In this document: positions 1-15,605 of the stretch, piece by piece
How the letters are laid out: each line of letters begins with the position of its first letter
How positions within the stretch are numbered: position 1 is the first letter of the stretch
Assembly: GCF_017875645.1 (NCBI RefSeq)
Contig: NZ_JAGGMR010000001.1
Location: 6,076,001-6,140,000, forward strand
Source of the DNA: Nocardia goodfellowii
Lineage (GTDB): Bacteria > Actinomycetota > Actinomycetes > Mycobacteriales > Mycobacteriaceae
Reading direction: 5' to 3'
Length of the DNA stretch: 64,000 nucleotides
Notes under the pieces: model-generated
What the model was told of the DNA's origin: nothing
The model's input: only the letters and a program-made list of their open reading frames with translations
Databases searched by the model: none
Position numbers and translations under genes: made by a program

Positions 1-186
1 ACTCGGAATTGTGCGTGGTCATCATGAACAGGTGGTAGGACACGGGGGTGTCGAGTTCGTCGAGGGCCAGTGTCAGGGACCGGATCTCGGGCACCGTGGA
101 TCGGAGGCCGGTCAGGAGCTTCGCCGCCTGCTGAGCGTCGCCGCGCTCGTGGAACTTCATCAGGACACGTGGGTCAGCGTGCTCAT
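1..186 (-). CDS. Dabb-family alpha/beta-barrel protein, partial, with an apparent one-base frameshift
   Basis: The gene runs off the left edge. Its ATG (184-186) overlaps the stop of the upstream gene as ATGA, the coupling used in this operon, but that frame (MSTLTHVS) stops at once. The next frame continues without stops from about position 170 to the edge and gives VLMKFHERGD, then VPEIRSL and SYHLFMMTTH, the layout of the stress-responsive Dabb (dimeric alpha-beta barrel) family. One extra G near position 166 would restore MSTLTHVVLMKFHE, a normal Dabb start. So it is a fresh pseudogene, a sequencing error, or translated from the internal ATG at 157-159. Dabb proteins are small dimers with varied functions, so no substrate is assigned. 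Confidence 0.6.
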
Positions 187-761
187 CGGGTGCTGCCGCG
201 GCGGCGCAGCAGGAAGAATGCCGCGATGGCCGCGACCACGAGGACCGCAGCGGCAATGCCGACGATCATTCTGGTGTTGCTGTCGTCGCTTTCGGATTCC
301 GCGGCGGGGGACGCCGCAGGGGTGGGCTGGACTGCGGTCTTCGCCGCGAAGGTCAGCGGTACGGAGGCCAGGATCTGGGACGGGTTGGTCAAGCTGGTGA
401 CGCTGATCGCGCAGGCGCCGGGGGCCGCGGCGCAGTCGGTGCCGCCCACCGCCGCGACCAGGGTGAGGGTGCGGGCGCCGTTTCTGGGCTGCCATACGCC
501 TTGCGCGTCGGCGGAGCCCATCAGCGATCCGGTGAGGTGGCAGTCGGTCGGCGCGACGACCTGCGGCTTACATTGCCCGACCGCGACGCCCGCCAGGTTG
601 GCGTCCAAGCCCGACAGTTCCACGGTGATCGTCTGTCCCGCCGCGACTCCCGTACTCGTATCCAGTTGCAGGGTGGGCGCGGCCGAGGCCGTCGGCGCGG
701 CCGCGAGCAGGCCGGTCGCGGCCGCCGTGAGGACGGCGAGCCGGAACGCGTTGTGTTTCAT
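183..761 (-). CDS. Membrane-anchored neocarzinostatin-family protein (copy 2)
   Basis: The 192-residue protein has a signal peptide ending near ASA (about residue 28). A neocarzinostatin-apoprotein-like immunoglobulin-type beta-barrel follows (about 30-140), with the motif ITVELSGLDANLAGVAVGQC and paired cysteines as in the family. After a Thr/Pro/Ser linker comes a C-terminal membrane helix starting MIVGIAAAVLVVAA and ending FFLLRRRGSTR. It is therefore predicted on the outer face of the membrane. Neocarzinostatin apoproteins bind an enediyne chromophore in an open cleft, but many actinobacterial homologues are not linked to antibiotics. The start has a good ribosome site (AGGAG, 8 bases upstream). 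It lies 20 bases downstream of a paralogue in one operon. The ligand is unknown; a planar chromophore such as a tetrapyrrole is my inference from the neighbourhood. Confidence 0.8.
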   Translation of the reverse strand: MKHNAFRLAVLTAAATGLLAAAPTASAAPTLQLDTSTGVAAGQTITVELSGLDANLAGVAVGQCKPQVVAPTDCHLTGSLMGSADAQGVWQPRNGARTLTLVAAVGGTDCAAAPGACAISVTSLTNPSQILASVPLTFAAKTAVQPTPAASPAAESESDDSNTRMIVGIAAAVLVVAAIAAFFLLRRRGSTR

Positions 762-781: not shown

Positions 782-1387
782 TCACAGCCGTCGCCGGTCG
801 GCGAGGGCGAGACCGGCGACTACGACCAGCAGGGCGGCGGTCGCCGACCACAGCGGTAGCGACGGTCCGTCGATATCGGCCGTGGACGCGGTGGTCGCGA
901 CGGTGGGGGCGGCCGTGGCCGCCGGGAGTTGCGATCCGGTGAAAGTGACCGCGATCTCGGCGGAGTTGGCCGCGAGCACGCTGGGCGGTTCGGTGCCGGG
1001 CAGCGGCGCGGCGGCGATCACGCACTGCTGCCGCAGGCAGTCGATCATGTTGAAATGCGGGCGGGCGGTGAGTGTGACGGTCGGCAGGGTGCCGTCGTCG
1101 GCGACGTTGACGAACGTCGCGCCACCGCCGAGATCGCAATCCCGCATTCCGCTGGTGAAGCCCTGCTTGCACAGGCCCACCGCGATCGAAGCGAGTCCGG
1201 GTCGGAACCCCGTGCCGTGCACGGTGATTCGCTGGCCCGTGGTCAAGTCGGTACTGGCGCTCACCTGTATCGCGGCCGTGCCGGGTGCCGCCTGCGCGGG
1301 CAGCACCGAAACAACCGGCGTCGAAGTGAGAAGTGCCGCGGTCAGCGAGACGGCCGCGGCCGAGCGGACGGTGATGGTGCGAATCAT
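782..1387 (-). CDS. Membrane-anchored neocarzinostatin-family protein (copy 1)
   Basis: A 201-residue paralogue of the next gene. It has a signal peptide (cleavage after about LPAQA), a neocarzinostatin-like beta-barrel with four cysteines (GLCKQG, RDCDLGG, DCLRQQC) that can form the two family disulfides, and a C-terminal hydrophobic helix (WSATAALLVVVAGLAL) followed by DRRRL, a typical stop-transfer end. Start chosen at 1387: it has a strong AGGAGG site and its ATG overlaps the stop of the upstream membrane-protein gene (ATGA). Two different surface copies in one operon suggest related but non-identical ligands. No enediyne polyketide genes are nearby, so a role in antibiotic storage is not supported. 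Confidence 0.8.
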   Translation of the reverse strand: MIRTITVRSAAAVSLTAALLTSTPVVSVLPAQAAPGTAAIQVSASTDLTTGQRITVHGTGFRPGLASIAVGLCKQGFTSGMRDCDLGGGATFVNVADDGTLPTVTLTARPHFNMIDCLRQQCVIAAAPLPGTEPPSVLAANSAEIAVTFTGSQLPAATAAPTVATTASTADIDGPSLPLWSATAALLVVVAGLALADRRRL

Positions 1388-2724
1388 GTTGTGCCTCCTG
1401 GGAAGACGGGTTCGGCTCCAGCCGGCCGAGGTGCGAGCCGCCCGCACAGCAGCGCGCAGCCCACGCCCGCCCCGGCAAGCACGGCCAGTCCCGAGCCGGT
1501 GCCCGCCAGCCGTGCCAGAGCACTGACCAGCCCCAGCCCCGTCGCCGCGGCGACCGCGGCCACCAGCACGGTCGCGGCACCCGCGCCGGATGGCACGGTC
1601 GCGGCGCCCGCGCCGGATGGCACGCTCGCGGCGCCCGCGCCGGATGGCACGCTCGCGGCGCCCGCGCCGGATGGCACGCCCGTGGCGCCCGCGCCGGATG
1701 GCACGCCCGTGGCGCCCGCGCCGGATGGCACGCCCGTGGCGCCCGCGCCGGATGGCACGCCCGTGGCGCCCGCGCCGGATGGCACGCCCGTGGCGCCCGT
1801 GGCGGATGGCACGCCCGCGCCGGATAGCAGGATGGCGGCGCGGATTTCACCGTCGAGCCCGCGTGCGGCTCGGGCGGCCGCCGCCAGCGCTACGGCGATA
1901 CCGATGGCCAGAGTGGCCTCGCCCGGTGCGGTGCCGACCAGCAGCGGCCCGCCCGCTGCCAGGGCCAGCAGCGGCACCACGGCACTCGGATCAGGCGTGG
2001 GCAGCGCGACCGCGAAGACCGCGGGCAACGCCGCGAAGACCAGCCAGGTGGCCTGCTCGGATCCCACCGCGTTCCAGCGGAACAGCAGCAGATGCAGCGC
2101 CGGGAGCACAGTGCCGCCCACGAGCAGACCCAGCGCGCCGTAGCCTGCCAAGGCCCATCGCATCGGCGCCGGTATCAGCCGATCCCCGGGCCGTCGTCCG
2201 ACGGCCGTCGCGGAATCCGCACCGTCCGGAGCGAACACCGCCACCGCCGCACAGGACGCCGCCAACAGGCCCGACACGAAAAGCCCGGTCCCCGGGGACC
2301 GTTGGCAGACCGCGGCGACGGCCGCGGCGACAACCACACCGAGTGCGGTCACGATGTGCCAACCGGTCAGCGTGGATCCCGCGAGCGCGCGCATCCGACC
2401 GGCGACGAATGCCGGTCCGGTTCCCGCACCGGCGACCAGTACCGCCGTGGTGAACATCCACGGCGTCGACACGAGCCCCGCTATCGCGAACGCCATTCCC
2501 GCGATCACGCCGCAGACCCCGCCGACACGCACCGAACGACCGGGCCGGATCGCCGCGGTCACGCAACCGAGCGCGAAGGCCGAGATCGCCAGGTACCCGA
2601 CGGCGGCGCTGGGAATCCCGACAACACCGCCGAAAGGCTTGGCCAGCAAGGCCAATTGCCCGCCGGCCACCGGCCCGGCCAGCGCACCGCAGAGGATGAG
2701 GCCCCCGATTCCCGCGCGCATCAT
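1384..2724 (-). CDS. Polytopic membrane protein (MFS-like) with an internal nonapeptide repeat
   Basis: About 446 residues, with roughly ten hydrophobic segments in the first 310 residues and two or three more at the C-terminus. Glycine spacing in the early helices (GGLILCGALAGPVAGG) recalls major-facilitator-type carriers, but I cannot assign a subfamily. Between the helical blocks, after DGEIRAAILLSGAG, is a low-complexity stretch of nine near-identical nonapeptides (GAGATGVPS, drifting to GAGAASVPS and GAGAATVPS). The start at 2724 overlaps the upstream small ORF as ATGA; TTG at 2736 is the alternative. Encoded with the two neocarzinostatin-fold proteins, it may export or import their ligand; this is inference. 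Confidence 0.7.
   Translation of the reverse strand: MMRAGIGGLILCGALAGPVAGGQLALLAKPFGGVVGIPSAAVGYLAISAFALGCVTAAIRPGRSVRVGGVCGVIAGMAFAIAGLVSTPWMFTTAVLVAGAGTGPAFVAGRMRALAGSTLTGWHIVTALGVVVAAAVAAVCQRSPGTGLFVSGLLAASCAAVAVFAPDGADSATAVGRRPGDRLIPAPMRWALAGYGALGLLVGGTVLPALHLLLFRWNAVGSEQATWLVFAALPAVFAVALPTPDPSAVVPLLALAAGGPLLVGTAPGEATLAIGIAVALAAAARAARGLDGEIRAAILLSGAGVPSATGATGVPSGAGATGVPSGAGATGVPSGAGATGVPSGAGATGVPSGAGAASVPSGAGAASVPSGAGAATVPSGAGAATVLVAAVAAATGLGLVSALARLAGTGSGLAVLAGAGVGCALLCGRLAPRPAGAEPVFPGGTT
1567..1809. repeat. 27-bp coding minisatellite, nine tandem units
   Basis: Nine head-to-tail 27-base units, each starting CACG(G/C)(T/C)CG on the plus strand and containing CCCGCGCCGGATGG, lie inside the membrane-protein gene. 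Units differ by one to three bases, mostly in a graded order from one end to the other, as expected of slippage. The length of 27 keeps the frame, adding nine residues per unit, so copy number can vary without breaking the protein. Confidence 0.95.
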
Positions 2725-3146: not shown

Positions 3147-4751
3147 ATGACCCGAGTCGCCGCCGCACAGCTCGCCGCCGGCACCGACGTCGCGGCCAAT
3201 CTCGCCGCCTGCCTGCGCGCGATCGACGCCGCCGCCCGGGCGAGCGCCGAACTGGTGGTACTGCCGGAGTTCTGTAACCACCTATCCTGGTACGACGACC
3301 GGGCTCATGCCCGGCGAATGGCCCGTACGCTCGGAGATTCCTTCCTCACCGCCGTCGCGGCGCGGGCCGCGCGGCACGGCATCCACGTCAAGATCGGTGT
3401 CACACTGGCCCGCGAAGACGGGCGCATCACCGGCACCAGCCTGTTGTTCGGACCGGATGGCGCGCTGCTCGGTCAGGCCGACAAGCAGATCCTGATGGGC
3501 GCGGAGAACGACTATCTCGATGCCGGGCAAGCGGATTCGCCGGTCATCGACACACCGCTGGGCCGGATCGGCATGTACGCCTGCATGGAGGGCGTGATCT
3601 ACGAGGTCACCCGCTCGCTAGCGGTGCGCGGGGCCCAACTGCTGCTCAACAGTCTCAACTCCTTCGCCACCGATGAGGCGAGCCTGCACATCCCGGTGCG
3701 CGCCGCGGAGAACAAGGTGTGGGTGGTGGCGGCCAACAAGGTCGGGCCGCTGCTACCGGAGGACCAACTGCCCGCCATCGCGAAAAGGCTCGGCGTACCG
3801 CCGGAGCGGTTGCACGGGGCCGGGGAGAGTCAGATCGTCGCACCCGACGGCACCTGCGTGGCCATGGCTCCGGCCACGGGCGAGGCGGTGATCGTCGCCG
3901 ATATCGATGTCGTGCGAGCCGACGCCAAACAACGGCCGGACGGCACCGACGTGCTGGCCGCGCGCCGCCCGGAACTGTATGCCCCCCTGAGTGATTCAGC
4001 CTCCGGCCGCCGAGCGCCCGTAGGTGTAGAGACCATCACCGCGGCGATCGCCGCGCCGGAGACCGCGACGATCCGGCACCTGGCCACCACCGGTGTGGAT
4101 CTCATCGTCCTGCCGGAGCTGGCGGCGGTGCCGATCCCCGAACTGGTGCGCGCGCTGGCGGACACCTCCGCCTATGCCGTGCTCACCGTCCGCGACGGCG
4201 CGGCACATCATGGCGTGCTCGTGCATGCCGACGGTGTCCTAGGTCGACAGCCACAACTACATCGCAGTGCTCGCCATCGGTGGCTCACCGCACCCGGCGA
4301 CGACCTGGCCGTCTTCGAATTGCCCTGGGGCCGAATCGCACTCGTCGTCGGCGACGACGCCTTGTTTCCCGAGACCTTCCGGCTGGCCGCCGTGCGGGAC
4401 GCCGACGTGGTGGCCGTGCCCTGCACCCCCTCCGAACCCTGGGAGCTGCGCCTCGGCCTGCCCGAGCGGGCCGCAGAGAATCGCTTGAACGTGGTGGCCG
4501 CCGGGTGGGGTCCCGCGGGGCTCACCGGCGCGCTCTACGCGCTCAGCCCGGATTTCACGCTGTGGTCCACCTGGAGCGGCCCGTTCACCGGGGTGATCAG
4601 CCACCCGGTGGTGACCACCGTCCCGCCCGGCGCGCGCAGCGTGCGCGCCACCCTCCGTCCCGCGCAGGCGGTGAACCGCGCCGTCTCCAAGGGCACCGAC
4701 CTCGTCGACGGCCGGCCCCGCCACCGTCTCGACGCCGTGCGCGCGCGGTGA
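3147..4751 (+). CDS. Carbon-nitrogen hydrolase with two nitrilase domains, second degenerate
   Basis: The 534-residue protein is about twice the usual nitrilase-superfamily length. Domain 1 (about 1-265) has the full catalytic set: Glu41 in LPEF, Lys113 in ADKQ, and Cys146 in YACMEG. Domain 2 (about 295-520) repeats the fold (IVLPELA, then PWGRIALVV) but has GDD where the catalytic Cys belongs, so it is probably inactive and structural. The family hydrolyses amides, nitriles or N-carbamoyl compounds; which one cannot be told here. It opens the operon, preceded by GGGAGAGG, 13 bases from the ATG. Next to maleate-isomerase-like and lyase genes, an amidase acting on a maleamate-type intermediate is a plausible role (inference). 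Confidence 0.85.
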   Translation: MTRVAAAQLAAGTDVAANLAACLRAIDAAARASAELVVLPEFCNHLSWYDDRAHARRMARTLGDSFLTAVAARAARHGIHVKIGVTLAREDGRITGTSLLFGPDGALLGQADKQILMGAENDYLDAGQADSPVIDTPLGRIGMYACMEGVIYEVTRSLAVRGAQLLLNSLNSFATDEASLHIPVRAAENKVWVVAANKVGPLLPEDQLPAIAKRLGVPPERLHGAGESQIVAPDGTCVAMAPATGEAVIVADIDVVRADAKQRPDGTDVLAARRPELYAPLSDSASGRRAPVGVETITAAIAAPETATIRHLATTGVDLIVLPELAAVPIPELVRALADTSAYAVLTVRDGAAHHGVLVHADGVLGRQPQLHRSARHRWLTAPGDDLAVFELPWGRIALVVGDDALFPETFRLAAVRDADVVAVPCTPSEPWELRLGLPERAAENRLNVVAAGWGPAGLTGALYALSPDFTLWSTWSGPFTGVISHPVVTTVPPGARSVRATLRPAQAVNRAVSKGTDLVDGRPRHRLDAVRAR

Positions 4752-4785
4752 AGCCGACACCGCCGCACCGAACGAAAGCAGCCGC

Positions 4786-5595
4786 ATGAGTGAAACCGTC
4801 CAGCATGTCGAGCACCTGGTCGATACGACCCCGCGCGCCGATGTCACCGAGACCTTCCAGGAATGGCGGGACCTGTTGAGCCGGTTGCGCTCCCGCATCG
4901 CCGAGCGCTTCGAGCTCACCCGCGACCCGTCCACCGCGGACCTGGAAACCTATGGTGACCCGGAGCAGGGCCCGTCGGGCAGCCTCGCGGCGTACAGCGG
5001 CCCCGAGATCGACTGGCTGGTGCACTCCTGGATAGGCGACCCGCGAACGGGTTTCGTGAATCTGCACCTGACGGCCTGGCTCGGCCCGCAGGTCCAGGTG
5101 CCGCATCTGGGCTCCGCGCTGCTGCTGTGGCCGGAGGGCTGGTTCTACGTCGATGCGGTCCCGCGCGGTGACCTGGTGGGTGACGGTGACTACTTCGATC
5201 GCTATTACGCACCGAACGACGTGCCCTGGCTGACCTTCAAGGAGGAGCATCCCGACTTCAGCTGGTTCACCAGCCGCACCGGGTTCATCCGCGGCAGCCT
5301 CTCGCCCACCGCCTACTGCTATTCGTTCCCGCCGACCCGCCCGAATCTCGAGGTGGTGGACCAGATTCTGACCGCCCGGGTGGAGCAGTGGCTGGGCTGG
5401 GTCGACGCGGCCGATCCGGTACCCGCCGGCGAACAGGCCGAACTGGCGGCCCGCGACCTCGCGGTGCGCCGCAATATCGCCGAGCGCGATCCGGCGAATG
5501 TCATGGGCGAGCGCATGTTCGGGCCCGAACTCACCCAGCGGCTGGTCCGCGCCCTCTGGGGCGGCGACCGCCAACTACCCAGGGCGGGCGCATGA
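4786..5595 (+). CDS. Red chlorophyll catabolite reductase (RCCR)-like protein
   Basis: The 269-residue protein resembles plant RCC reductase in order and spacing: VDAVPRGDLVGDGDYFDRYY (residues 122-141; plants have an RKDLV-DYL-FYEDT pattern), FIRGSLSPTAY (168-178; plants FIRS-LSPTA), and ERMFGPELTQRLVRAL (242-257; plants RLFGPE-A-RI). RCCR, related in fold to ferredoxin-dependent bilin reductases, reduces a C=C bond of the open-chain tetrapyrrole made when PaO opens the chlorophyll ring. No signal peptide is seen, so it is probably cytoplasmic and would need reduced ferredoxin. The start lies 34 bases after the nitrilase stop. Family match is from recalled motifs, not a search; the true substrate may be another bilin. 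Confidence 0.8.
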   Translation: MSETVQHVEHLVDTTPRADVTETFQEWRDLLSRLRSRIAERFELTRDPSTADLETYGDPEQGPSGSLAAYSGPEIDWLVHSWIGDPRTGFVNLHLTAWLGPQVQVPHLGSALLLWPEGWFYVDAVPRGDLVGDGDYFDRYYAPNDVPWLTFKEEHPDFSWFTSRTGFIRGSLSPTAYCYSFPPTRPNLEVVDQILTARVEQWLGWVDAADPVPAGEQAELAARDLAVRRNIAERDPANVMGERMFGPELTQRLVRALWGGDRQLPRAGA

Positions 5596-5644
5596 GCGAG
5601 CGAAGCACACGCCGACCGGAGCCGCGCGGCACCGAGGTGCGCTC

Positions 5645-6646
5645 ATGACCGGCGATCCGAAGGCGGCGGCCGGCTCGACCATCGGCCCTGACCTGAATCG
5701 AGCAGCCCTGATCCGCTCGATGTGGTGGTCGGTCCGGACCGATGGCGTCGCGCCGTTCGATACCGCGCACCTCAAGGTGTACTACCCCGCTCTGCCCTCC
5801 GGCAGCGACGCGGAGCGCCTGACCGGCGTCTTCGCCCCGGATCCGACGCGTGCCCCCTATCCGGTGGTGGTGTTCCTCTCCGGCGTCAACGTCGGCCAGG
5901 ACTCCTACCGCCGGTTCGCCACCGCCGTCGCGGCAACCGGCTTCGTGGTGGTCACCATGGATCGGGTCGCCGAATTGTTCGGCGGTCAGCGCGGTCTCAC
6001 GCCGGGAGTCGATCTCGACGCCGCCCGCCCGGACGCCTACGGCACCCGCCCTACCTGCCCCACCATCGGCGCGGTACTCGACGCGTTGATCGAAATCAAC
6101 GAGCTGCCACCGCTACGCGGAGCATTGGACTTGGCGCGCATCGCCTTGGGCGGACATTCGGCAGGCGGCACCGTGGTCTTGCAGTCCGCCCGCTTCTTTC
6201 CTTCGGTGGCGGCGGTTTTCGCGTGGGGCGCGCACACGATGGTCGCGACCATGCTGGGCTGGGCTCCCGGTACCGTCCTGCCCGCGCAGGTCGGGTGTCC
6301 GGTGCTGCTCGGCGTCGGCACCAACGACGGTGTCATCCAGGCCAGCGCCGACCGCTACGGCGAAGACGGCGCGGAGCGGCCGGATCCGGTGCGGCGCACC
6401 TTTCTCGAGGCGCTGCCACAGGGTGATCATCTGCTGGCGGTGGTGCCCGGCGCCAACCATTTCGGTATCGCCGACACCGATCCGACGGCCGCCCGGGCCT
6501 TTCTGGACGGCCCGGCCGAGACCGACGCACTGGCACCGTTCGCCCGGCTCACCTCGGCCTTCTTACGGGCGCATCTGCGCGGCGACGGGGCGGCCGGAAC
6601 CGAACTGGCCGAGTTCGATCAGGGCGTACGGCTGAGCCGGCGATAG
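5645..6646 (+). CDS. Chlorophyllase-like alpha/beta hydrolase
   Basis: A 333-residue alpha/beta hydrolase without signal peptide. The nucleophile elbow is GGHSAGG (Ser172), a probable acid is in GVGTNDG and the base is His in GANHFG. The oxyanion region (PVVVFLSGVN) and the placing of the core strands fit the dienelactone hydrolase/chlorophyllase branch; plant chlorophyllases have GHSRGG at the elbow. In plants the enzyme removes phytol from chlorophyll, and sitting between RCCR-like and PaO-like genes makes de-esterification of a tetrapyrrole a fair guess. The ATG at 5645 has GAGGTG upstream. The serine hydrolase call is firm, the substrate inferred. Confidence 0.75.
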   Translation: MTGDPKAAAGSTIGPDLNRAALIRSMWWSVRTDGVAPFDTAHLKVYYPALPSGSDAERLTGVFAPDPTRAPYPVVVFLSGVNVGQDSYRRFATAVAATGFVVVTMDRVAELFGGQRGLTPGVDLDAARPDAYGTRPTCPTIGAVLDALIEINELPPLRGALDLARIALGGHSAGGTVVLQSARFFPSVAAVFAWGAHTMVATMLGWAPGTVLPAQVGCPVLLGVGTNDGVIQASADRYGEDGAERPDPVRRTFLEALPQGDHLLAVVPGANHFGIADTDPTAARAFLDGPAETDALAPFARLTSAFLRAHLRGDGAAGTELAEFDQGVRLSRR

Positions 6647-6656
6647 GAGCAAAACC

Positions 6657-7778
6657 ATGTTGAAGAACTTCTGGTACGCACTGGAATTCGCGGACAAAGT
6701 CACCCGCGAGCCGCGCAAGATCACCTGCGTGGGCCAGGATTTCGTGGTGTACCGCACCGAAGCCGGTGCGCCGGTCTGCCTTTCGGATCTGTGTGTGCAC
6801 CGCGGCGGCGCGTTGTCCATGGGCAAGGTCACCGGCGACTGTATCTCGTGCCCGTATCACGGCTGGCAGTACAACGCCGAGGGCGTGTGCGTGAAGATTC
6901 CCGCGAATGCCGAGGAACGCAAGATTCCACGCAAGGCGCGAGTGGACGCGTATCCGACAGTGGAACGCTATGGCATGGTGTGGGCCTTCCTCGGCGATCT
7001 CCCCGAGGCGGAACGGCCGCCGATCCCGGAATTGCCCGAGCACAACGATCCAGCGTTCCGGGCGGTGCAGTTCGAGATGGAGATCGCCGCCAACTACGAG
7101 CGCACGTTCGAGAACGTGGTCGACGCCGCGCACACGCCGTTCGTGCACGGCACCGCCTTCGGCAACCCGGACAAGCCGGGGATCCCGGATTTCCGTATCC
7201 GGCAGACGGAATGGTCGGCCGAAGCCGATATCCAGCTCAGCCCGCCGCTACCGAAGGGCCTGTGGGGACTGCTGGCCCGGCGGCGGCCACGGGCGGAGTA
7301 CGTCACCGTCACCAACGCCTGGTACCTGCCCAACATCGTGAAACTGCACGTGCGGCTGCCCATGGGCGACCTGCTGCTCTACGACTTCAATATCCCGCTG
7401 TCACAGGAGCGGACGCTGGTCAAGATTCTCGGCTACCGCAACTTCTTCACCGGCGCCTGGGCGGACGGCAATGCCCGCAAACGCATCGAGAAGATCCTGC
7501 TGCAGGACCAGCCGGTGGTGGAAAACCAACGCCCGGAGTTGCTTCCGTTCGATCTCGCCGACGAACTGCACGTGCGCAGCGACGGTTTGCAGGTCGCCTA
7601 TCGCCGCAGGCGTCTGGAACTGATCAAACAGGGCTGGTGGGTCGGCGGTGACGACATCATCACCGGCGACTCCCCACGCCGGAAGGCCACCGTCATCGCT
7701 TCCCCGGTCCGCCGCGACAATCCCGAACTGGCCAGTGCCTGGGTGCACAAGGCCCGCACCGGAGGTAATCCGCAATGA
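6657..7778 (+). CDS. Rieske non-haem iron oxygenase, pheophorbide a oxygenase-like
   Basis: The 373-residue protein has an N-terminal Rieske [2Fe-2S] domain with ligands Cys46-x-His48 (CVHRGG) and Cys65-x2-His68 (CPYHGW). The catalytic domain has N153-x2-D156-x2-H159-x4-H164 (NVVDAAHTPFVHG), providing the bridging Asp and the two His ligands of mononuclear iron. DQPVVENQRP near residue 284 matches the Asp-containing helix typical of the PaO/Tic55/vanillate-demethylase branch. PaO opens the pheophorbide a macrocycle to red chlorophyll catabolite. Unlike plant PaO, I see no C-terminal membrane helix. The start has AGGAG 9 bases upstream. Flanked by chlorophyllase-like and RCCR-like genes, a ring-opening role is the best hypothesis; the electron-transfer partner is not in the cluster. 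Confidence 0.85.
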   Translation: MLKNFWYALEFADKVTREPRKITCVGQDFVVYRTEAGAPVCLSDLCVHRGGALSMGKVTGDCISCPYHGWQYNAEGVCVKIPANAEERKIPRKARVDAYPTVERYGMVWAFLGDLPEAERPPIPELPEHNDPAFRAVQFEMEIAANYERTFENVVDAAHTPFVHGTAFGNPDKPGIPDFRIRQTEWSAEADIQLSPPLPKGLWGLLARRRPRAEYVTVTNAWYLPNIVKLHVRLPMGDLLLYDFNIPLSQERTLVKILGYRNFFTGAWADGNARKRIEKILLQDQPVVENQRPELLPFDLADELHVRSDGLQVAYRRRRLELIKQGWWVGGDDIITGDSPRRKATVIASPVRRDNPELASAWVHKARTGGNPQ

Positions 7779-8464
7779 GTCTCCCGACCGCGCTCAGCGA
7801 GCGCACCCTGGGCACGCTGAGTTCCGCACTGGGCCTGGACACCACTGAGGATGTGGCACTGACCAGCGCCATGTCACCCGAACCGGTGGGCCGGCTGCGG
7901 GTGCTGCGCGGCGGGCCGATCGACAAGGCGGTCACCGTCGATCTGGTGGTCCCGCAGATCGGCCTGGACAGTCACATGATCTTCGCGTTCACCGATAGTG
8001 CCTCCGCGATACCGCATTTCACGCTGGACTCGGTGCGGGCACCCGAGTATCACGCGCTGCATTTGGATCTGATTCCGCGCGCCGATCTGGCCGTCAACCT
8101 GGACTACCTGGATTCGGCGTTCCTGCCCCTGACGCCGCTGCTCGAAGCGGCATGGCGGATCGAGGGCCTGTCCCCCGCCGCCATCGGTCCGCGGCAGCGC
8201 GCCATGATGTCGCCGTGGATGCTGGTGTGCCGCGCCACCGAGGACGCCTTCCGCGCCTTGGACGTCACCGTCGACCGCTATCTGGCGCACTGGCTCACGT
8301 TGGCGGACAAGGGAGTTCCCACCGTGGACACCGACCTTCCGGCACGGGACCGGATCAATCGAGCGAATCTGTTCAGCCCGGCGGTGGATCCGGTGTGGGC
8401 GCAGGTGACCAGGCTGCTCGGCGCCGAACAGGCCGAGCGGGTGCGCGGGGAGCTGGTCGCGTGA
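7775..8464 (+). CDS. Second RCCR / ferredoxin-dependent bilin reductase-fold protein
   Basis: 229 residues. The central motif HLDLIPRADLAVNLDYLD (96-113) is the hallmark of the RCCR/bilin-reductase fold (LDL-PR-DLA-DYLD). The N-terminal half (RGGPIDKAVTVDLVVPQ) aligns with the sheet that carries the bilin. It lacks the FGPE C-terminal motif seen in the 4786 gene, so the two are diverged paralogues, possibly acting on successive or different bonds. The start overlaps the Rieske stop (ATGA) and has GGAGG 8 bases upstream. Confidence in the fold is fair and in the exact reaction low. Confidence 0.65.
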   Translation: MSLPTALSERTLGTLSSALGLDTTEDVALTSAMSPEPVGRLRVLRGGPIDKAVTVDLVVPQIGLDSHMIFAFTDSASAIPHFTLDSVRAPEYHALHLDLIPRADLAVNLDYLDSAFLPLTPLLEAAWRIEGLSPAAIGPRQRAMMSPWMLVCRATEDAFRALDVTVDRYLAHWLTLADKGVPTVDTDLPARDRINRANLFSPAVDPVWAQVTRLLGAEQAERVRGELVA

Positions 8465-9378
8465 GCACCCAGGCCGCGCCGAGCGCGTTCCAGCAACGCA
8501 TAGCGGGCGAATGGGTCGGCCGCCCTTCGCTTTTCGACGCGCACGGCACCTGGCGGGGCTATGAGGACATCCGCCGCAGTTCCGTGTTCGCCGACGGCGT
8601 CACCACCTACTACATGGACGGCGGGCTCACCGGCGGCGGCGATCTGGCCGGCCGGTTCGCGCTGGGCGCGCCGTTCGCCTTCGGCGTCCGGGATTCCGAC
8701 GCCGACCGCCTCTACACCGGACCCGATTTCTATGGATCCGGCCGGCCCTACGGCAATTTCGTCGACGCCCACTACTACGGTCCGGGCTGGCAGGTCTCGC
8801 TGAACACCTGGAATCAGACCATCGGCGACACCCAGGTGTATTCGTCGGTGCTCTACCAGGGCCCGGCCATGGTGGGCGTGTTCGACGGCGTCTACACGCG
8901 CGTGCCGGAGCTCGTCGAGCAGCGCATCGAGACCGAAACCCGGTGCGGCCCCGCTGTATTCACCGTGCCGACCAAGGAGAAGTCCCGATACTCCGGTGAA
9001 CTGGAAGTGTGGAGCGCGGGTCAGCGGTCGCTGGGCAGCCTGCACATGGCGCTCGACATCGATCCGCTGAACCTGCTCACCGCCGAACACCGCCTGGTGA
9101 TGTCCGGTCCGGTCGAGTTCGATTCCCGAACCACGGTGCGGCGCGACGGGGTCCGATCCTTCCACGAGGGCCCCGATCTCTGGGGCAACGGAAACTCCTA
9201 CGGCCGAGCCAATTTCGTCCGGCTGCACACTTCGGACGGGCGCAGACTCGTCGGACGGGAATTCATGATCGACGCCGAGCCGGGGATGGGCGCGGGCTCC
9301 GAGCTCGCGGTGGTGTACCAGATGTTCGAGCACAACTGCCTGGTCACGGTGCTGCACGGCGTGCTGGAGCGGGCATGA
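8461..9378 (+). CDS. Predicted beta-barrel protein, lipocalin-like, function unknown
   Basis: 305 residues starting at GTG, overlapping the previous stop (GTGA). The sequence is almost all short strands rich in Gly, Tyr and Trp (GEWVGRPSLFDAHGTWRG, then FYGSGRPYGNFVDAHYYGPGW), with two similar halves, as expected for one or two calycin-type barrels. No signal peptide or membrane segment is seen. I do not recognise a family with certainty. Calycin barrels often carry bilins or haem (for example the CpcT/CpeS bilin lyases), so a carrier or lyase for the operon's intermediate is a reasonable guess. It is not similar to the plant Mg-dechelatase SGR as far as I can judge. Confidence 0.55.
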   Translation: MSTQAAPSAFQQRIAGEWVGRPSLFDAHGTWRGYEDIRRSSVFADGVTTYYMDGGLTGGGDLAGRFALGAPFAFGVRDSDADRLYTGPDFYGSGRPYGNFVDAHYYGPGWQVSLNTWNQTIGDTQVYSSVLYQGPAMVGVFDGVYTRVPELVEQRIETETRCGPAVFTVPTKEKSRYSGELEVWSAGQRSLGSLHMALDIDPLNLLTAEHRLVMSGPVEFDSRTTVRRDGVRSFHEGPDLWGNGNSYGRANFVRLHTSDGRRLVGREFMIDAEPGMGAGSELAVVYQMFEHNCLVTVLHGVLERA

Positions 9379-10145
9379 GGACCGTGGTGGTGACCGGCGG
9401 GACCCGGGGCATCGGACTCGGCATGGTGCGGGCCCTGCTCGACGGCGGGCATCGGGTCGCTTTGTGCGGCACCGACACCGCGCGTGTCGCCGAAGTGCGC
9501 TCGCGCCTCGGTGATTCGGCCCTGGTCATGGCCGCCGACGTGACCGAGCGCGCGTCGCTGCAGGCGCTGTGGGACGCCGCGGTCGACCGCTTCGGCAAGG
9601 TCGACGTGTGGATCAACAACGCGGGGGTGTCGCACGATCGGGCCCCGCTGTGGCAGCTGCCCGCCGAGCAGGCCCGCGCCGTCGTCGAGACCAATCTCCT
9701 GGGCGTGCTGCACGGGTCGGCCGTCGCCGTGGCGGGGATGGCGGCGGCCGGCGGCGGGCACGTGTGGAACATGGAGGGTCTCGGCAGTGACGGCCGCACC
9801 GTGACCGGGCTGGCCGCCTACGGCGCCAGCAAGCGTGGTGTCACCTATGTGACCAAGGCGCTGGCCAAGGAAACACCGGCCGGAGTGTCGGTGGGACTGC
9901 TGAGCCCCGGCATGGTGGTCACCGACCTGCTCACCCACGGCTACGCCGATCCGGACGAATTGGCCAAGGCCCGCAAGGTGTTCAACATCCTCGCCGACAC
10001 CGTCGAGACCGTGGCACCGTGGCTGGCCGAGCGCGCTGTCACGCACACCCGCAACGGCGCGCATGTGCGCTGGCTGACCACGCCGAAGGTGATCGGGCGT
10101 TTCGCCATGGCGCCGGTGCGCCGCCGAGATCTGTTCGCCGGGTAG
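9375..10145 (+). CDS. Short-chain dehydrogenase, chlorophyll b reductase (NYC1/NOL)-like
   Basis: A 256-residue SDR with nucleotide motif TGGTRGIG (7-14), NNAG (81-84) and catalytic Tyr149/Lys153 in YGASK. Beyond general SDR features it has a run of NYC1/NOL-type signatures: VDVWINNAGV, HVWNMEGLGSDG (plants IFNMDGAGSGG), LLSPGMVVTDLL (plants SPGMV-TDLL), KVFNILADTVETVA (plants MFNI--LPETVA) and the end VRWLTTPKVI followed by RRR (plants YLTPPRI...RR). NYC1/NOL reduces the 7-formyl group of chlorophyll b, the first step towards breakdown. The start overlaps the previous stop (ATGA). Of all cluster members this match is the most specific. Confidence 0.85.
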   Translation: MRTVVVTGGTRGIGLGMVRALLDGGHRVALCGTDTARVAEVRSRLGDSALVMAADVTERASLQALWDAAVDRFGKVDVWINNAGVSHDRAPLWQLPAEQARAVVETNLLGVLHGSAVAVAGMAAAGGGHVWNMEGLGSDGRTVTGLAAYGASKRGVTYVTKALAKETPAGVSVGLLSPGMVVTDLLTHGYADPDELAKARKVFNILADTVETVAPWLAERAVTHTRNGAHVRWLTTPKVIGRFAMAPVRRRDLFAG

Positions 10146-10149
10146 CGCG

Positions 10150-10788
10150 GTGGAGTATCCGATCTCGCTGGCGGTGGAGGACTTCGCGCCGGTCCTGCTG
10201 ACCGTGGCCGGAGTCCTGGTGTTGCGCAACGTCTTCCCGGCCAGACGTGGAATTCTGGCGGCCGCGGCTCTGCTGGGCGCGGGCGGCTTCGCGAAAGCCA
10301 CGGCGAAACTGATCGCCGCGGCCGGCGGCCCGGATCTGCCGTGGCTGCGGAATCTGCTGTTTCCGCTACTGACGCTCGGCTTCGCGGTGCTGGCCTGGGT
10401 GGTCGTGGGCTCGCGTGCCGGGCGCATCCCACCGTGGCTCGGCTTTTTGGTGCCTGGGCTCACCCTCGCGTGCGCGCTGGGCGCGGTGCTGGCCCGCGAT
10501 CCCCTGCCGATGCTGGTGAGCACCACCGTGTTCGCCACCCTCACCGGCGGCCAGCTGATTCTGCTGGCGCGCGCCCGCGGTGACGCCATCGCGGCCGGCC
10601 TGTTCGGCACCCAATTGCTGGTGTTCTTCCTGCTCGGACCACTCGCGTCCCGGCCCGATCAGACGGTGGCCCTGCAGTGGGCCGAACAGCTGTGCAATAC
10701 CGCGGCGCAGGCCGCGTTCCTGGTCGCCGCCCGGCGACTCTCGGCCGCCCCCGTCGCGGCCCCGACCGACGAGGAGTTGATCCGATGA
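10150..10788 (+). CDS. Six-to-seven-helix membrane protein of unknown function
   Basis: 212 residues starting at GTG, with hydrophobic segments spread over the whole length (FAPVLLTVAGVLVL, ILAAAALLGAGGFA, LLFPLLTLGFAVLAWVVVG, WLGFLVPGLTLACALGAVL, LVSTTVFATLTGGQLILLA, FGTQLLVFFLLGPLA, AAFLVAARRL). No transporter signature is recognised. It lies between the SDR and the isomerase-like gene and overlaps the latter as ATGA, so it belongs to the operon. It may be a membrane platform or permease for a pathway intermediate. No internal repeat, cysteine pair or haem-ligand pattern stands out. Confidence 0.7.
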   Translation: MEYPISLAVEDFAPVLLTVAGVLVLRNVFPARRGILAAAALLGAGGFAKATAKLIAAAGGPDLPWLRNLLFPLLTLGFAVLAWVVVGSRAGRIPPWLGFLVPGLTLACALGAVLARDPLPMLVSTTVFATLTGGQLILLARARGDAIAAGLFGTQLLVFFLLGPLASRPDQTVALQWAEQLCNTAAQAAFLVAARRLSAAPVAAPTDEELIR

Positions 10789-11528
10789 CCGACGCACTGG
10801 GCTGGCGGCGCAAATTCGGCGTGATCGCACCCTCCACCAACACCATTGTGGAGCCCGACTTCTATCGGATGGGCGTGCCGGGCGTCACCGCGCATTTCAG
10901 CCGCATCCATATCCGCGATCAGAACATGGCCGACGATGCCGGCATGGACCGCCTGCTGGAACAGATTCGCGCCGAAATCGGTTCGGCCTGCGAGCGGGTG
11001 CTGACCTGCGAGCCCGACTACATGGTGATGGGTATGTCCGCCGAAACCTTCTGGGGCGGCGTGGAAGGCAACCGGCAGTTCGTCCAGCAGATCCACGATG
11101 TCACCGGCCTGGAGGTGGCGACCGGGGCCGAAGCCTGCCGCCGCGCCCTGGAACTGTTCGGTGCCCGGCGCATCGGCGTGGTGACGCCGTACCAGCCGAT
11201 CGGCGACGCGAACGTGGTCCGCTTCTTCGGCGAACTGGGTTTCGAGGTCGCCGCCATTCAGGGATTGCGCTGTCCCACCGCGGTTTCCATCGCCCACGTC
11301 ACCGAGGATGACTTGCGCACGGCACTGCTCGAAGTGAACAGCGACAATGTCGACGCCCTCATCCAGTGCGGCACGAATCTGTCCATGGTGCGGCTGGCCG
11401 ACGAGGCCGAGCGCTGGCTCGGCAAACCGGTGCTCGCCATCAACGCCGCGACGTGGTGGATGGCGCTGCGCGACAACGGCATTCCAGATCGAGTGGCGGG
11501 CGCGGGGTCACTGCTGCGCGACCACTGA
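10785..11528 (+). CDS. Maleate isomerase / arylmalonate decarboxylase-like enzyme, copy 1
   Basis: 247 residues of the Asp/Glu racemase superfamily: FGVIAPSTNTIVEPDF at the N-terminus, VMGMSAETFWGG in the middle, VTPYQPIGD, and QCGTNLSMV (Cys195). Maleate isomerases use two cysteines; here the first position is Ser85 and only the second Cys is present, as in one-cysteine arylmalonate-decarboxylase relatives. Likely chemistry is cis-trans isomerisation or decarboxylation of a small dicarboxylate. It is last in the long operon and coupled by ATGA. Oxidative tetrapyrrole breakdown gives substituted maleimides/maleates, which would be natural substrates (inference). Confidence 0.75.
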   Translation: MTDALGWRRKFGVIAPSTNTIVEPDFYRMGVPGVTAHFSRIHIRDQNMADDAGMDRLLEQIRAEIGSACERVLTCEPDYMVMGMSAETFWGGVEGNRQFVQQIHDVTGLEVATGAEACRRALELFGARRIGVVTPYQPIGDANVVRFFGELGFEVAAIQGLRCPTAVSIAHVTEDDLRTALLEVNSDNVDALIQCGTNLSMVRLADEAERWLGKPVLAINAATWWMALRDNGIPDRVAGAGSLLRDH

Positions 11529-11532
11529 CCGG

Positions 11533-12354
11533 TCATAGGGCGTCGAGCAGGCGGCGGGCCTGCCGGACCACCGCCTCGTCCACCATGCGGCCGGAGTCGT
11601 CGAGCATCACGCCCCCGGCGGCGTCCCGGAAGCGATCCACCAGCGCGCGGGCGCGCTCGACCTCGTCCGCGGTAGGCGTGAAGACCTCGTTGACCACCGG
11701 CAGTTGCGCGGGATGAATGCAGGCGCGACCCCGGAACCCCAAGCGGCGCAAGGCGATCGTCGACTCGCGCAGCGCTTCGAGGTCGCGGAAGTCGGTGCGC
11801 ACCGGGCCGAGCGGCGGCTCGATACCCGCCGCGGCGCCGGCCAGCACCACCTGCGATCGGATGGCCAGCAGTTCGCGTTCGTCCGGGCCGGGCGTGAGGC
11901 CGAGTTCGGCGGCTAGGTCCGCCTCACCGATCTGGAGCCGGGAAACGCGTGCCACGGAGGCGATCTCGAACGCCGCGAGAATCGCCGCCGCACTCTCGAG
12001 CAGAGCGCAGATCCGGATCGCGCCCGGGTGGGGCTCGCACGTGCTCAGCACCGCGCCCGCGGCGCGGACCTGCCGCGCCGATTCGGTCTTCGACAGACAG
12101 ACGGCCGCGACCATCGGCCCGGCCACCGCGCGCAGATCCTGGTGGCCGAGCTCGCCCGGATTGACCCGCACCCAGACCGCCGGACGCGCCCGCGTGACAC
12201 CGCGCAGCCAGGCGGCGACCTCCGCGCGCGCGGCGTCCTTGTCTGGTAGCGGGACGCCGTCCTCGAGATCGAGCAGCACCACGTCCGCCGGTCCGGCCAG
12301 CGCCTTGTCGAACAACTCCGGTCGATTGCCCGGCACGTACAGCGCGGATCTCAT
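11533..12354 (-). CDS. HpcH/HpaI aldolase / citrate lyase beta-subunit family protein
   Basis: 273 residues of the CitE-like TIM-barrel family: RSALYVPGNRPELFDKAL, LLDLEDGVP with the acidic metal residues, RVNPGEL, KTESARQV, CALLESAAAILAA and GEADLAAELG, ending FRGRACIHPAQLPVVNEVF. Members cleave citryl-, malyl- or citramalyl-CoA, or catalyse related carbon-carbon reactions with Mg2+. The chosen start (12354) has GGAGGG directly upstream. It converges with the long operon, with only 4 bases between stops, and its promoter carries GTTTC-N7-GAAAC site B, so it is co-regulated. It could cleave an acid made from the isomerised product. Confidence 0.85.
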   Translation of the reverse strand: MRSALYVPGNRPELFDKALAGPADVVLLDLEDGVPLPDKDAARAEVAAWLRGVTRARPAVWVRVNPGELGHQDLRAVAGPMVAAVCLSKTESARQVRAAGAVLSTCEPHPGAIRICALLESAAAILAAFEIASVARVSRLQIGEADLAAELGLTPGPDERELLAIRSQVVLAGAAAGIEPPLGPVRTDFRDLEALRESTIALRRLGFRGRACIHPAQLPVVNEVFTPTADEVERARALVDRFRDAAGGVMLDDSGRMVDEAVVRQARRLLDAL

Positions 12355-12533: not shown

Positions 12534-13484
12534 ATGACCCTTAGACGCCCGGTTCTGACCGCCGTCGCCGCCGCTCTCATCGCCGTTATCGGCACCGGAA
12601 CCACCGCCGCCACCACCCAGCTCTCGGGCAGCGTCGATATTCGCTGCGCCGCAAGCACTCTGCACCAGGACGCGGACTGGTACCTTCCCACCGCAAAGCC
12701 GACCGCCATGGTGTGGATCCAGCACGGATTCGCCCGGAGCAATGCGCAGATCGGGGCCTTGGCACGCGGTTTCGCCGAAGCCGGCTATCTGGTGTTCGCG
12801 CCGAGCCTGCCGTTCATGCAGTGGCAGGGCTGCACCCTGCAGAACCTCGGCGACAACAGCGCCTTCCTGCACAACGTGGCCGAACTGTTCGGCACCGCGA
12901 CCGATCCCACCGGCGCGCTCGCCGCCGGCCTGGCCACGGCGGCCCGCCGCAACGGCGTGCCGGTCCCGGAGTTGCCCAGCGAGCTGGTCTTTCTCGGGCA
13001 TTCGGCGGGAGCCGAAGCCGTCACCTTCGTCGCCGACCGGATCCGCAGCACGCATCCGCAGACCTTCATCGGACTGCGCGGGGTCATCCTGCTGGATCCG
13101 GTCAAGTCCTTCATCGGCGACAATATCGCCCGCGCGCTGACCGGTTTGGATCCCACCGGCCTGCCCATCCTGACCATCTCGGCGGCGCCCGCGCTGTGCA
13201 ACAGCTTCGGCGTCGGCACCGCCGCCGTGCAGACGCAGTTGCGCCGCCCGTTCGTGGGCATCCGCCTGCGGGACGGCGTGCACACCGATGCCGAGGGCGC
13301 CAGCTCGGACCCGCTGGGCACCCTGCTCTGCGGCACGCCCACCGCGGTGAACGCCGCCACCCTGCGCACCCTCGCCCTCGGCTGGACCGGCGACTTCCTC
13401 ACGGGTGCGACCGCCGCCACCGAACCTCGCGCCCGCGCCTTGGTGTCCACCGGGCTGGCCGCCGACCTCCTGCCCGGATCCTGA
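12534..13484 (+). CDS. Secreted alpha/beta hydrolase
   Basis: 316 residues with a signal peptide (about 1-27, TRRPVLTAVAAAL type, TTAAT cut region). An alpha/beta-hydrolase fold follows: oxyanion segment VWIQHGFARSNAQ, nucleophile elbow FLGHSAGAEA, and a probable His in LRDGVHTDAEG. The cysteines in the mature part (RCAAS, QGCTL, LCNSF, LLCGT) could form two disulfides, which fits export. The start has GGGGAG upstream. It is divergent from the lyase gene, with operator C in its promoter, so probably induced with the tetrapyrrole-type operon. An exported esterase could strip phytol from chlorophyll or pheophytin outside the cell; this is inference. Confidence 0.75.
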   Translation: MTLRRPVLTAVAAALIAVIGTGTTAATTQLSGSVDIRCAASTLHQDADWYLPTAKPTAMVWIQHGFARSNAQIGALARGFAEAGYLVFAPSLPFMQWQGCTLQNLGDNSAFLHNVAELFGTATDPTGALAAGLATAARRNGVPVPELPSELVFLGHSAGAEAVTFVADRIRSTHPQTFIGLRGVILLDPVKSFIGDNIARALTGLDPTGLPILTISAAPALCNSFGVGTAAVQTQLRRPFVGIRLRDGVHTDAEGASSDPLGTLLCGTPTAVNAATLRTLALGWTGDFLTGATAATEPRARALVSTGLAADLLPGS

Positions 13485-14301: not shown

Positions 14302-15045
14302 TCAGTGCTCACGGAGTAGACAGCCCGCGCCGTCGACGCGGTCATCGAAACCGTGCTCGCGCAAGGCATTCCAGAGCGTAGCGGTGTTGATCGCGAGGAC
14401 CGGCTTGCCCAGCTCCGCCTCCAACCGGTCGGCCAGCGCGACGAAGGACAGATTCGTGCCGACCTGGACGATCGCCTGCACGTCGGCTCCGTCGATCTCG
14501 GCGACGACCGACCGTAGACGTCCGGCACCGACCCGGGCGATATCCATCGCCGTCGGACACCGCAGACCGGTGATCGCGGCGACGTCGAAACCGGCCTCGG
14601 TGAAGAACCGGCCGACCTCCTTGTCCGCGATCGGCTGATACGGGGAGAACACCGCGATGCGACGGCACCCCAGTTCCCGCAACGCGGCCCGGCACGAGCT
14701 CGCGCCGGTCGTGACCGGCAGACCACTACGGTCCCGCAGACGCTGCTCGAACGCGGCGTTTCCGGCCACGCCACCCCAGAAGGTTTCGGCCGACATGCCC
14801 ATGACCATACGATCGGGCTCCGCGGTGAGCACATCACGCACCGCGGTGTCGATGGACGCGCGGATCTGGCCGAGCAGTCCCTGAAAGTCCTCATCGTCGC
14901 CCATCACCGGATTCGGGATGTACATCGAGCCCGCCCGATAGGCGATGCCCGGAAGCCCGGCCCGCCAATAGTCGTGCTCGACAACGGTATTGGTACTGGG
15001 AACGATGACCCCGAAGACCGCCCGGGCGCCCACGACGTTGGTCAT
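14302..15045 (-). CDS. Maleate isomerase-like protein, copy 2, lacking both catalytic cysteines
   Basis: 247 residues, the same length as the copy at 10785 and alike throughout: VFGVIVPSTNTVVEHDY, MVMGMSAETFWGG, FSPYQPIADKEVG. Where copy 1 has QCGTNLSMV, this one has QVGTNLSFV, so the remaining catalytic Cys is Val; the first Cys position is Ser, as in copy 1. It may bind the ligand without turning it over, act as a partner subunit, or use other chemistry. The start at 15045 overlaps the TetR stop (ATGA), so the two form an operon in which a regulator precedes a possibly non-catalytic ligand-binding protein. Confidence 0.75.
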   Translation of the reverse strand: MTNVVGARAVFGVIVPSTNTVVEHDYWRAGLPGIAYRAGSMYIPNPVMGDDEDFQGLLGQIRASIDTAVRDVLTAEPDRMVMGMSAETFWGGVAGNAAFEQRLRDRSGLPVTTGASSCRAALRELGCRRIAVFSPYQPIADKEVGRFFTEAGFDVAAITGLRCPTAMDIARVGAGRLRSVVAEIDGADVQAIVQVGTNLSFVALADRLEAELGKPVLAINTATLWNALREHGFDDRVDGAGCLLREH

Positions 15046-15605
15046 CGCACGCTCCCGGCGCCGAGCCGGGCCAGCAGCTCGTCGACGGCGCGATGGGCGC
15101 GTTCCCGCTCGACGGGACGGTCCAGCAGCAGTGCTTCGACCACCAGCGGAGAAACGACGGACAGGGCCGCCTCCTCCACGTCGGCCACCCCGAGCGCGGT
15201 GAGTGCGGTGCGGAAAGGTCCGAGCAGGTCGTTGACGTAGCGGTGCCGCAGTTCGGTACACGACGGATCGGCCGAGGAGGCCTTGACCAGCGCCCGCAGG
15301 AACGCCGCAACGGGCTTGTCGCGCAATCGATCACAGAGCAGATCGGTTTCGGCGTGCAAGTCGGCCGCCAGATCACCGCTGGGCTCCGGCGATTCGTGCG
15401 GCGCCACCGCGATGAGCGCGGCGAGGAAGTCGCGCGGCGTCGGCCAGTGCCGGTAGATGGTCGTCCGCGCGACCCCGGTCACGGCATGCAGCCGCTGCGG
15501 CGTCAGCGCGGCCGCCCCCTCGGTCAGCAGCAGCTCCAATGCCGCTGTCAGCACGATGTTTTCGGTGTCGGCGGCAGGCCCCGCCGGACGGCCCGGTCTG
15601 GTCAT
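15042..15605 (-). CDS. TetR-family transcriptional regulator
   Basis: 187 residues: an N-terminal helix-turn-helix (TAALELLLTEGAAALTPQRL, then GVARTTIYRHWPTPRDFLAAL, about residues 15-65) and a ligand-binding helical C-terminus. It is divergent from the cupin gene at 15688; the 82-base gap holds a nested palindrome that is a good operator for control of both genes. It is co-transcribed with the isomerase-like copy 2. The ligand is unknown. Its operator does not resemble the GTTTC-N7-GAAAC sites, so another regulator probably controls the main operon. Confidence 0.85.
   Translation of the reverse strand: MTRPGRPAGPAADTENIVLTAALELLLTEGAAALTPQRLHAVTGVARTTIYRHWPTPRDFLAALIAVAPHESPEPSGDLAADLHAETDLLCDRLRDKPVAAFLRALVKASSADPSCTELRHRYVNDLLGPFRTALTALGVADVEEAALSVVSPLVVEALLLDRPVERERAHRAVDELLARLGAGSVR

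Follow-up and report, generated by a model that had tools for sequence, protein, structure and literature searches.

We analysed a 64,000-nucleotide stretch of Nocardia goodfellowii DNA, called the window here (assembly GCF_017875645.1, contig NZ_JAGGMR010000001.1, positions 6,076,001 to 6,140,000 of the forward strand). Near its start, open reading frame (ORF) calls place nine tightly packed genes head to tail on the plus strand, from 3147 to 11528. Two encode proteins related to red chlorophyll catabolite reductase (RCCR) and another encodes a Rieske oxygenase. A preliminary description of this DNA had recognised a coupled plus-strand operon at this place, which is borne out. The genes that it named (a short-chain dehydrogenase/reductase (SDR), a hydrolase, a Rieske oxygenase and two RCCR-fold proteins) are all present; it left four others unnamed (CN-hydrolase, DUF3598-like, membrane protein and AMDase-like), and its range is only part of a larger island. 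The nine genes, numbered g1 to g9, are as follows.

g1, 3147..4751, plus strand: double CN_hydrolase of the nitrilase/amidase superfamily (PF00795, E 2.3e-48, two stretches)
g2, 4786..5595, plus strand: RCCR1, red chlorophyll catabolite reductase family (PF06405)
g3, 5645..6646, plus strand: alpha/beta hydrolase, DLH/PAF-AH/chlorophyllase-like (DLH 1.5e-5, Chlorophyllase 3e-5)
g4, 6657..7778, plus strand: Rieske non-haem iron oxygenase, VanA_C type (Rieske 6.5e-22, VanA_C 2.5e-21)
g5, 7775..8464, plus strand: RCCR2, second protein of the RCCR/ferredoxin-dependent bilin reductase fold (fold match)
g6, 8461..9378, plus strand: two-barrel DUF3598/BFA1-like fold (fold match along the chain)
g7, 9375..10145, plus strand: classical SDR (adh_short 6.1e-38)
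g8, 10150..10788, plus strand: membrane protein by its sequence (Pfam and NCBIfam without match)
g9, 10785..11528, plus strand: arylmalonate decarboxylase (AMDase)/EutA-like member of the Asp/Glu racemase superfamily (PF17645, 1.6e-20)

Four-base overlaps join the Rieske gene to RCCR2, RCCR2 to g6, and g6 to the SDR. A search of genome_contigs with RCCR1 gave 126 encoding stretches, the best 80 of which were used as loci: 26 from Nocardia and 54 from other genera, including Nonomuraea, Streptosporangium, Actinomadura, Streptomyces, Catellatospora, Actinoplanes, Dactylosporangium and Micromonospora. RCCR1 is present at all 80 by construction, because the loci were located through it, and the set leans to close relatives, since it holds the best 80 of 126. 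Genes at these loci were predicted with a home-made gene finder. Joint conservation of the genes had been set as a test in the preliminary description, and the genes do stay together: g1 to g7 and g9 occur in the window's order, on one strand, at 70 of the 80 loci, 46 of which also have g8 called. Most flank genes outside the island (r52-r79) recur at none of the 80 loci, the maximum being four. The operon arrangement is not a product of chance. Within Nocardia, the RCCR family exceeds its cut-off in 36 of 150 genomes and the Rieske protein in 36 of 148; RCCR1 and Rieske occur together in 35, each list of 36 having one unique genome. A search of plasmids yielded no match to RCCR1 or RCCR2.

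The ten loci without the full eight-gene order reflect in part gene-finder misses or contig ends, and in part real differences. tblastn recovered the Rieske gene in L069, RCCR1 in L090 and L091, the SDR in L099 and part of g1 in L110. Among the real exceptions, g6 has no match in L059, g3 has none in L071 and L072, and g1 lies on the opposite strand in L065. L091 (Actinomadura sp. J1-007) has Rieske and g6 relatives downstream on the opposite strand, a rearranged form of the operon. At L061 10001-10798 (Nonomuraea corallina), RCCR1 stands without the other operon genes nearby, be it as a lone copy, by relocation or by decay.

The Rieske oxygenase and the RCCR pair

RCCR1 matches PF06405 with 55.5 bits (cut-off 24.9; E 6.1e-15) over positions 3-251 of 253. 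In a profile search of the PDB it finds plant RCCR at 1.7e-16 and the bilin reductase 6qwq at 1.2e-8; by sequence, RCCR1 is nearer to RCCR than to bilin reductases. RCCR2 scores 18.7 bits against PF06405, under the cut-off, and has the RCCR/bilin-reductase fold along its entire chain. The two proteins of this fold noted initially are thus confirmed, the first by Pfam and the PDB profile search, the second by fold. Neither matched the ferredoxin-dependent bilin reductase family PF05996 at E 0.1. RCCR1 relatives from Nocardioides and Mumia, including P0104, P0105 and P0119, match both PF06405 and PF05996, bridging the two families. Relatives by fold also include coproporphyrinogen oxidase, likewise tetrapyrrole-binding, and the good-scoring solved relatives of the pair are tetrapyrrole enzymes, except for two chains of the chloroplast FtsHi motor complex.

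Residue conservation was read from alignments of orthologues that span 80% or more of the reference (78 to 80 sequences, including the window's own). His107, Ala111 and Asp235 of RCCR1 are invariant in 79 of 79 sequences. Asp235 aligns with Asp291 of AtRCCR, which a single-sequence alignment puts one residue off; AtRCCR numbering was fixed by the F218V entries, and we take Glu154 and Asp291 to be its active-site residues. In RCCR2, Asp85 aligns with AtRCCR Glu154 and Asp205 with SlHY2 Asp263 (HY2 numbering taken from the Arg259/Asp263 spacing), both being present in 80 of 80 sequences. As aligned, the RCCR2 acids occupy both proton-donor positions of the fold family.

The Rieske oxygenase retains its CxH/CxxH Rieske ligands and the iron ligands Asp156, His159 and His164 in 79 of 79 sequences; its best solved relatives are NdmA and SxtDIOX/SxtT. 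It was originally called PaO-like. That a Rieske oxygenase is coupled to the RCCRs holds, and its identification as PaO does not: PF08417 gives no match and VanA_C scores instead. It likely opens or hydroxylates a tetrapyrrole.

Among the other operon proteins, the first domain of g1 has a Glu41-Lys113-Cys146 triad, kept in all 78 sequences of the alignment, and in the second the Cys is absent, by eye, at the equivalent site. A likely ester hydrolase, g3 has an intact triad (Ser172, Asp228, His272; 78 of 78). The proposal of a chlorophyllase-like hydrolase therefore survives as an alpha/beta-hydrolase with a Ser-Asp-His triad, not as a chlorophyllase: PF07224 gives 23.4 bits (cut-off 26) over 37 residues only, and DLH scores higher. 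No PDB match to g6 came from a sequence search, and its family is not assigned by sequence; among the proteins that its first half resembles are the haem-binding nitrobindin and the bilin lyase CpeS. It is possibly a tetrapyrrole carrier or chaperone. The SDR, whose best solved relative is hydroxybutyrate dehydrogenase, had been proposed as NYC1/NOL-like. We do not adopt this assignment: the matches in Pfam, NCBIfam and the PDB are generic SDRs, in a comparison that included no NYC1/NOL sequence, and the SDR does not adjoin the core in G399 and G441, two distant actinobacteria that retain RCCR1-Rieske-RCCR2-g6 as a block. The most conserved of the nine proteins is g9 (mean identity 84% across loci), with Cys163 and Cys195 in 79 of 79 sequences. 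Maleate isomerase was considered for g9 and dropped, as AMDase and EutA match best and a second copy lacks Cys195.

An island around the operon

The operon is the middle of an island of about 37 kb, which begins about 20 kb ahead of the window, ends about 16.6 kb into it and lies largely upstream of it. Its other genes are listed below in window-relative coordinates, negative numbers standing for positions before the window start.

-20176..-18707, minus strand: dihydropyrimidinase-like amidohydrolase (amidohydrolase match; dihydropyrimidinase is our reading)
-17339..-16539: cyclase-family hydrolase
-16427..-15009: MmgE/PrpD
-13633..-12734, minus strand: HMGL-like
-12653..-11439: coenzyme A (CoA)-transferase
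-11427..-10810: isochorismatase (isochorismatase-type amidase)
-9708..-8812, minus strand: PETase/chlorophyllase-like hydrolase
-8698..-7991: membrane protein
-7984..-7199, minus strand: IclR regulator
-7044..-6520: flavin reductase
-6523..-5207: acyl-CoA-dehydrogenase-like flavoprotein
-5137..-3731: first aldehyde dehydrogenase
-3734..-2592: flavin adenine dinucleotide (FAD) monooxygenase
-2372..-954: second aldehyde dehydrogenase
-100..160, minus strand: Dabb-domain gene (PF07876, 5.7e-12; window part 2..160, whole in L112 15900-16160)
183..761, minus strand: neocarzinostatin-fold protein with hydrophobic N- and C-terminal segments, by eye (PF00960, 8.4e-6)
782..1387, minus strand: second neocarzinostatin-fold protein (PF00960, 2.5e-10)
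1384..2724, minus strand: multi-pass membrane protein by its sequence
11533..12354, minus strand: CitE/HpcH-type C-C lyase (PF03328, 3.9e-37)
12534..13484, plus strand: protein whose start resembles a signal peptide and which has a GHSAGA motif of the alpha/beta-hydrolase kind, both by eye (Pfam without match)
14302..15045, minus strand: second AMDase-like enzyme (PF17645, 1.8e-22)
15042..15605, minus strand: TetR regulator
15688..16581, plus strand: DUF4437/ChrR-type cupin (PF14499, 9e-39)

Within the 10-kb upstream flank, counted by best match, the second aldehyde dehydrogenase recurs at 69 of the 80 loci, the FAD monooxygenase at 65, the first aldehyde dehydrogenase at 60 and the flavoprotein at 48, counts dropping toward the end of the flank. 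We surveyed further upstream in ten more Nocardia genomes, with one 20-kb stretch per genome; here and in G399, matches below 40% identity were discarded (g6 of G399 has 34%). The isochorismatase, IclR regulator and membrane protein were each found in all ten, the CoA-transferase, flavin reductase and flavoprotein in nine each, the HMGL, cyclase and MmgE/PrpD genes in eight each and the dihydropyrimidinase-like gene in six. The upstream island is kept across Nocardia.

A related association occurs in G399, a 2.6-Mb genome, where eleven genes run on the same strand with gaps of at most 60 bases, from L129 10992 to L130 3811: CoA-transferase, cyclase, MmgE/PrpD, hydantoinase B, hydantoinase A, isochorismatase, luciferase-like monooxygenase, RCCR1 (PF06405, 72 bits), Rieske, RCCR2 and g6. 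The RCCR/Rieske core is linked by this run to enzyme families that open amide rings. The DUF4437/ChrR-type cupin adjoins the cluster there as well (68% identity).

Homologues of the 183..761 protein, a possible surface binder, occur within the flank at 23 of the 26 Nocardia loci and none of the other 54; for 782..1387 these counts are 23 and 8, and for the 12534..13484 protein 23 and 13. The membrane protein at 1384..2724 has homologues at 22 of the 26 Nocardia loci and matches a Thermomonospora homologue (L114 11943-13760) at 39%, where ABC_tran scores 25 bits, exactly its cut-off. The 1384-2724 (-) protein contains a run of near-identical GAGATGVPS-type repeats. The second AMDase-like enzyme, in an alignment of 18 sequences, has Val at the position of g9 Cys195 in 18 of 18. 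Past the cluster of Rhizocola (L119 5901-10301) lie a substrate-binding protein without Pfam match, an ATP-binding cassette (ABC) ATPase and a permease, Liv-type by eye, a possible importer. Elsewhere in the window, an ORF at 31921-32274 (+) is mostly VTGGAV repeat and is probably low-complexity sequence, not a gene.

A predicted pathway and its substrate

On balance, we favour the view that the island degrades a chlorophyll-type tetrapyrrole, the oxygenase opening it, the RCCR pair reducing the bilin, and hydrolases and lyases processing the pyrrole-derived rings. Gene order and its conservation, family and fold assignments and conserved active-site residues are what we observe; from these we infer the order of steps and all substrates in the following scheme. 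Ester groups would be removed by g3 and the secreted-looking upstream hydrolase, and the macrocycle cleaved or hydroxylated by the Rieske oxygenase. The bilin so formed, which g6 may hold meanwhile, would have C=C bonds reduced by RCCR1 and RCCR2, with a ferredoxin encoded at another place in the genome. Oxidation of the fragments, to lactams or maleimides, would fall to the SDR, the two aldehyde dehydrogenases and the oxygenases of the FAD and two-component flavin types; chlorophyll and haem are known to yield maleimides and hematinic acid when oxidised (PMC7318184). These rings would be opened as cyclic amides and de-amidated by the dihydropyrimidinase-like, cyclase-family, CN-hydrolase and isochorismatase-type enzymes. 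AMDase-like enzymes, CoA-transferase, MmgE/PrpD and HMGL/CitE-type lyases would then carry out CoA activation and cleavage into central metabolism, the whole pathway being under IclR control. A more complete version is conceivable though doubtful. In it, surface proteins and secreted hydrolases would capture and de-esterify chlorophyll of plant litter, the non-PaO Rieske enzyme would open the macrocycle, reduction of the bilin would be the task of two RCCR members with a dedicated carrier, and all four rings would enter CoA metabolism by an imide/lactam pathway, making this a complete chlorophyll-mineralisation island.

Several observations weigh against the degradation of a chlorophyll-type tetrapyrrole. 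RCCR1 has Ala111 (79 of 79) where AtRCCR has Glu154, and RCCR2 is about equally near to bilin reductases and RCCR. The solved relatives of the oxygenase include N- and O-demethylases, and PF08417 matches none of 14 island genomes (it matched 3 of 14 control genomes, one above cut-off). The Staygreen Mg-dechelatase PF12638 was found in none of 18 genomes, in a search without positive control. Both halves of g6 match unrelated barrels (spirocyclase, outer-membrane proteins) about equally well. A motif search of the genes predicted at the loci recognised no ferredoxin and a single reductase-like gene, which lies far downstream in L117. PF01126 haem oxygenase occurs elsewhere in 10 of the 14 island genomes, and RCCR1 in just 3 of 396 sampled genomes of the phylum, its own included and the two others being G399 and G441.

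By this last count the spread of the cluster in actinobacteria is patchy, as could be the case if the island made a small pyrrole-, lactam- or maleimide-type metabolite, with RCCR-fold reductases as tailoring enzymes, a role in which oxygenases and SDRs are often found. We consider such a biosynthetic function improbable: no polyketide synthase, non-ribosomal peptide synthetase or pyrrole-building enzyme was recognised among the scanned genes, which are part of the total, and catabolism is the typical setting of an IclR regulator, CoA-transferase, HMGL- and CitE-type lyases, aldehyde dehydrogenases and hydrolases of the hydantoinase/isochorismatase type.

Could a catabolic island act on something other than a tetrapyrrole? 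Nicotinate, pyrimidine (Rut) and hydantoin degradation proceed by opening an amide or imide ring, after which isochorismatase-type amidases and enzymes of the racemase superfamily act. The same enzyme types are present in the island, which differs in linking them to RCCR-fold reductases and a Rieske oxygenase. Enzymes resembling dihydropyrimidinase, cyclase, isochorismatase, hydantoinase and luciferase are reminiscent of pyrimidine and hydantoin breakdown and, together with the loss of the Glu154 acid in RCCR1, could mean that the RCCR-fold pair has shifted to a non-tetrapyrrole N-heterocycle, which the island would degrade. This is quite unlikely in view of both acids retained in RCCR2 and of the tetrapyrrole enzymes that, FtsHi chains apart, make up the good-scoring solved relatives of the pair.

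If the substrate is a tetrapyrrole, our best guess from sequence is that a chlorophyll-type pigment is the most likely one, a haem- or phycobilin-type bilin being the main rival; the caution in the preliminary description that another tetrapyrrole might be the substrate stands. The presence of PF01126 in 10 of 14 island genomes makes a haem-derived bilin possible. The island would then degrade biliverdin or related haem-derived or phycobilin-type bilins, with the Rieske enzyme acting on the bilin and the macrocycle opened by haem oxygenase or by other organisms. We hold this to be unlikely, since four of the 14 genomes lack a match to PF01126, the one haem-degrading family that the search covered, the PF01126 gene of N. 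goodfellowii itself lies about 219 kb from RCCR1, and RCCR1 is closer in sequence to RCCR than to bilin reductases. Our best guess of chlorophyll also draws on the alpha/beta-hydrolases in and beside the operon, which an esterified pigment fits better, and on a Rieske enzyme standing in place of haem oxygenase.

Comparison with known routes

The compound on which plant RCCR acts is the product of a Rieske oxygenase, PAO (PMC8621299). The island resembles this PAO/phyllobilin pathway in having a Rieske oxygenase beside an RCCR-family reductase, with alpha/beta-hydrolases alongside, and its tight core suggests, by analogy, the plant-type two-step logic with a different Rieske subfamily. It differs in that its oxygenase is of VanA_C type, not PaO by Pfam, in its two RCCR-fold paralogues, in the lack of a Staygreen match in our uncontrolled search, and in some 20 more linked genes pointing to breakdown past the bilin. 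The match to plant chlorophyll breakdown first proposed is therefore reduced to the oxygenase-plus-RCCR step, most other parts being different.

Bacterial PF06405 proteins are known from Nostoc and Anabaena, with two neighbouring copies in Nostoc (PMC2716323). Those hosts are photosynthetic cyanobacteria, whereas the island belongs to actinobacteria and is conserved and catabolic-looking. The ferredoxin-dependent bilin reductases and pre-PcyA proteins of heterotrophic bacteria share the fold, the C-terminal Asp and non-photosynthetic hosts with the island (PMC10151467). Their clusters contain iron-sulphur, V4R and globin proteins, with haem oxygenase upstream in the pathway; the island has instead a Rieske oxygenase and ring-opening hydrolases. 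The main text of that paper contains none of the words actinobacter-, Nocardia, Streptomyces or Rieske. The open-access literature that we found on the topic deals with plant pathways, bacterial Staygreen homologues, cyanobacterial RCCR-family proteins and pre-PcyA clusters, and yielded no description of a bacterial cluster that joins Rieske and RCCR genes (neither preprints nor subscription papers were covered). The predicted system is likely a variant form of tetrapyrrole catabolism, new among described routes.

Chlorophyll is made and destroyed at 10^12 kg a year, and the later fate of its degradation products is described as largely open (PMC7318184). With a defined set of genes in actinobacteria that can be cultured, the microbial half of the chlorophyll cycle would become directly testable, and the island would supply candidate enzymes for the post-bilin steps. 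The source of RCCR genes has been called problematical (PMC2716323); RCCR1 and RCCR2 may represent a bacterial relative that bears on the debated origin of plant RCCR.

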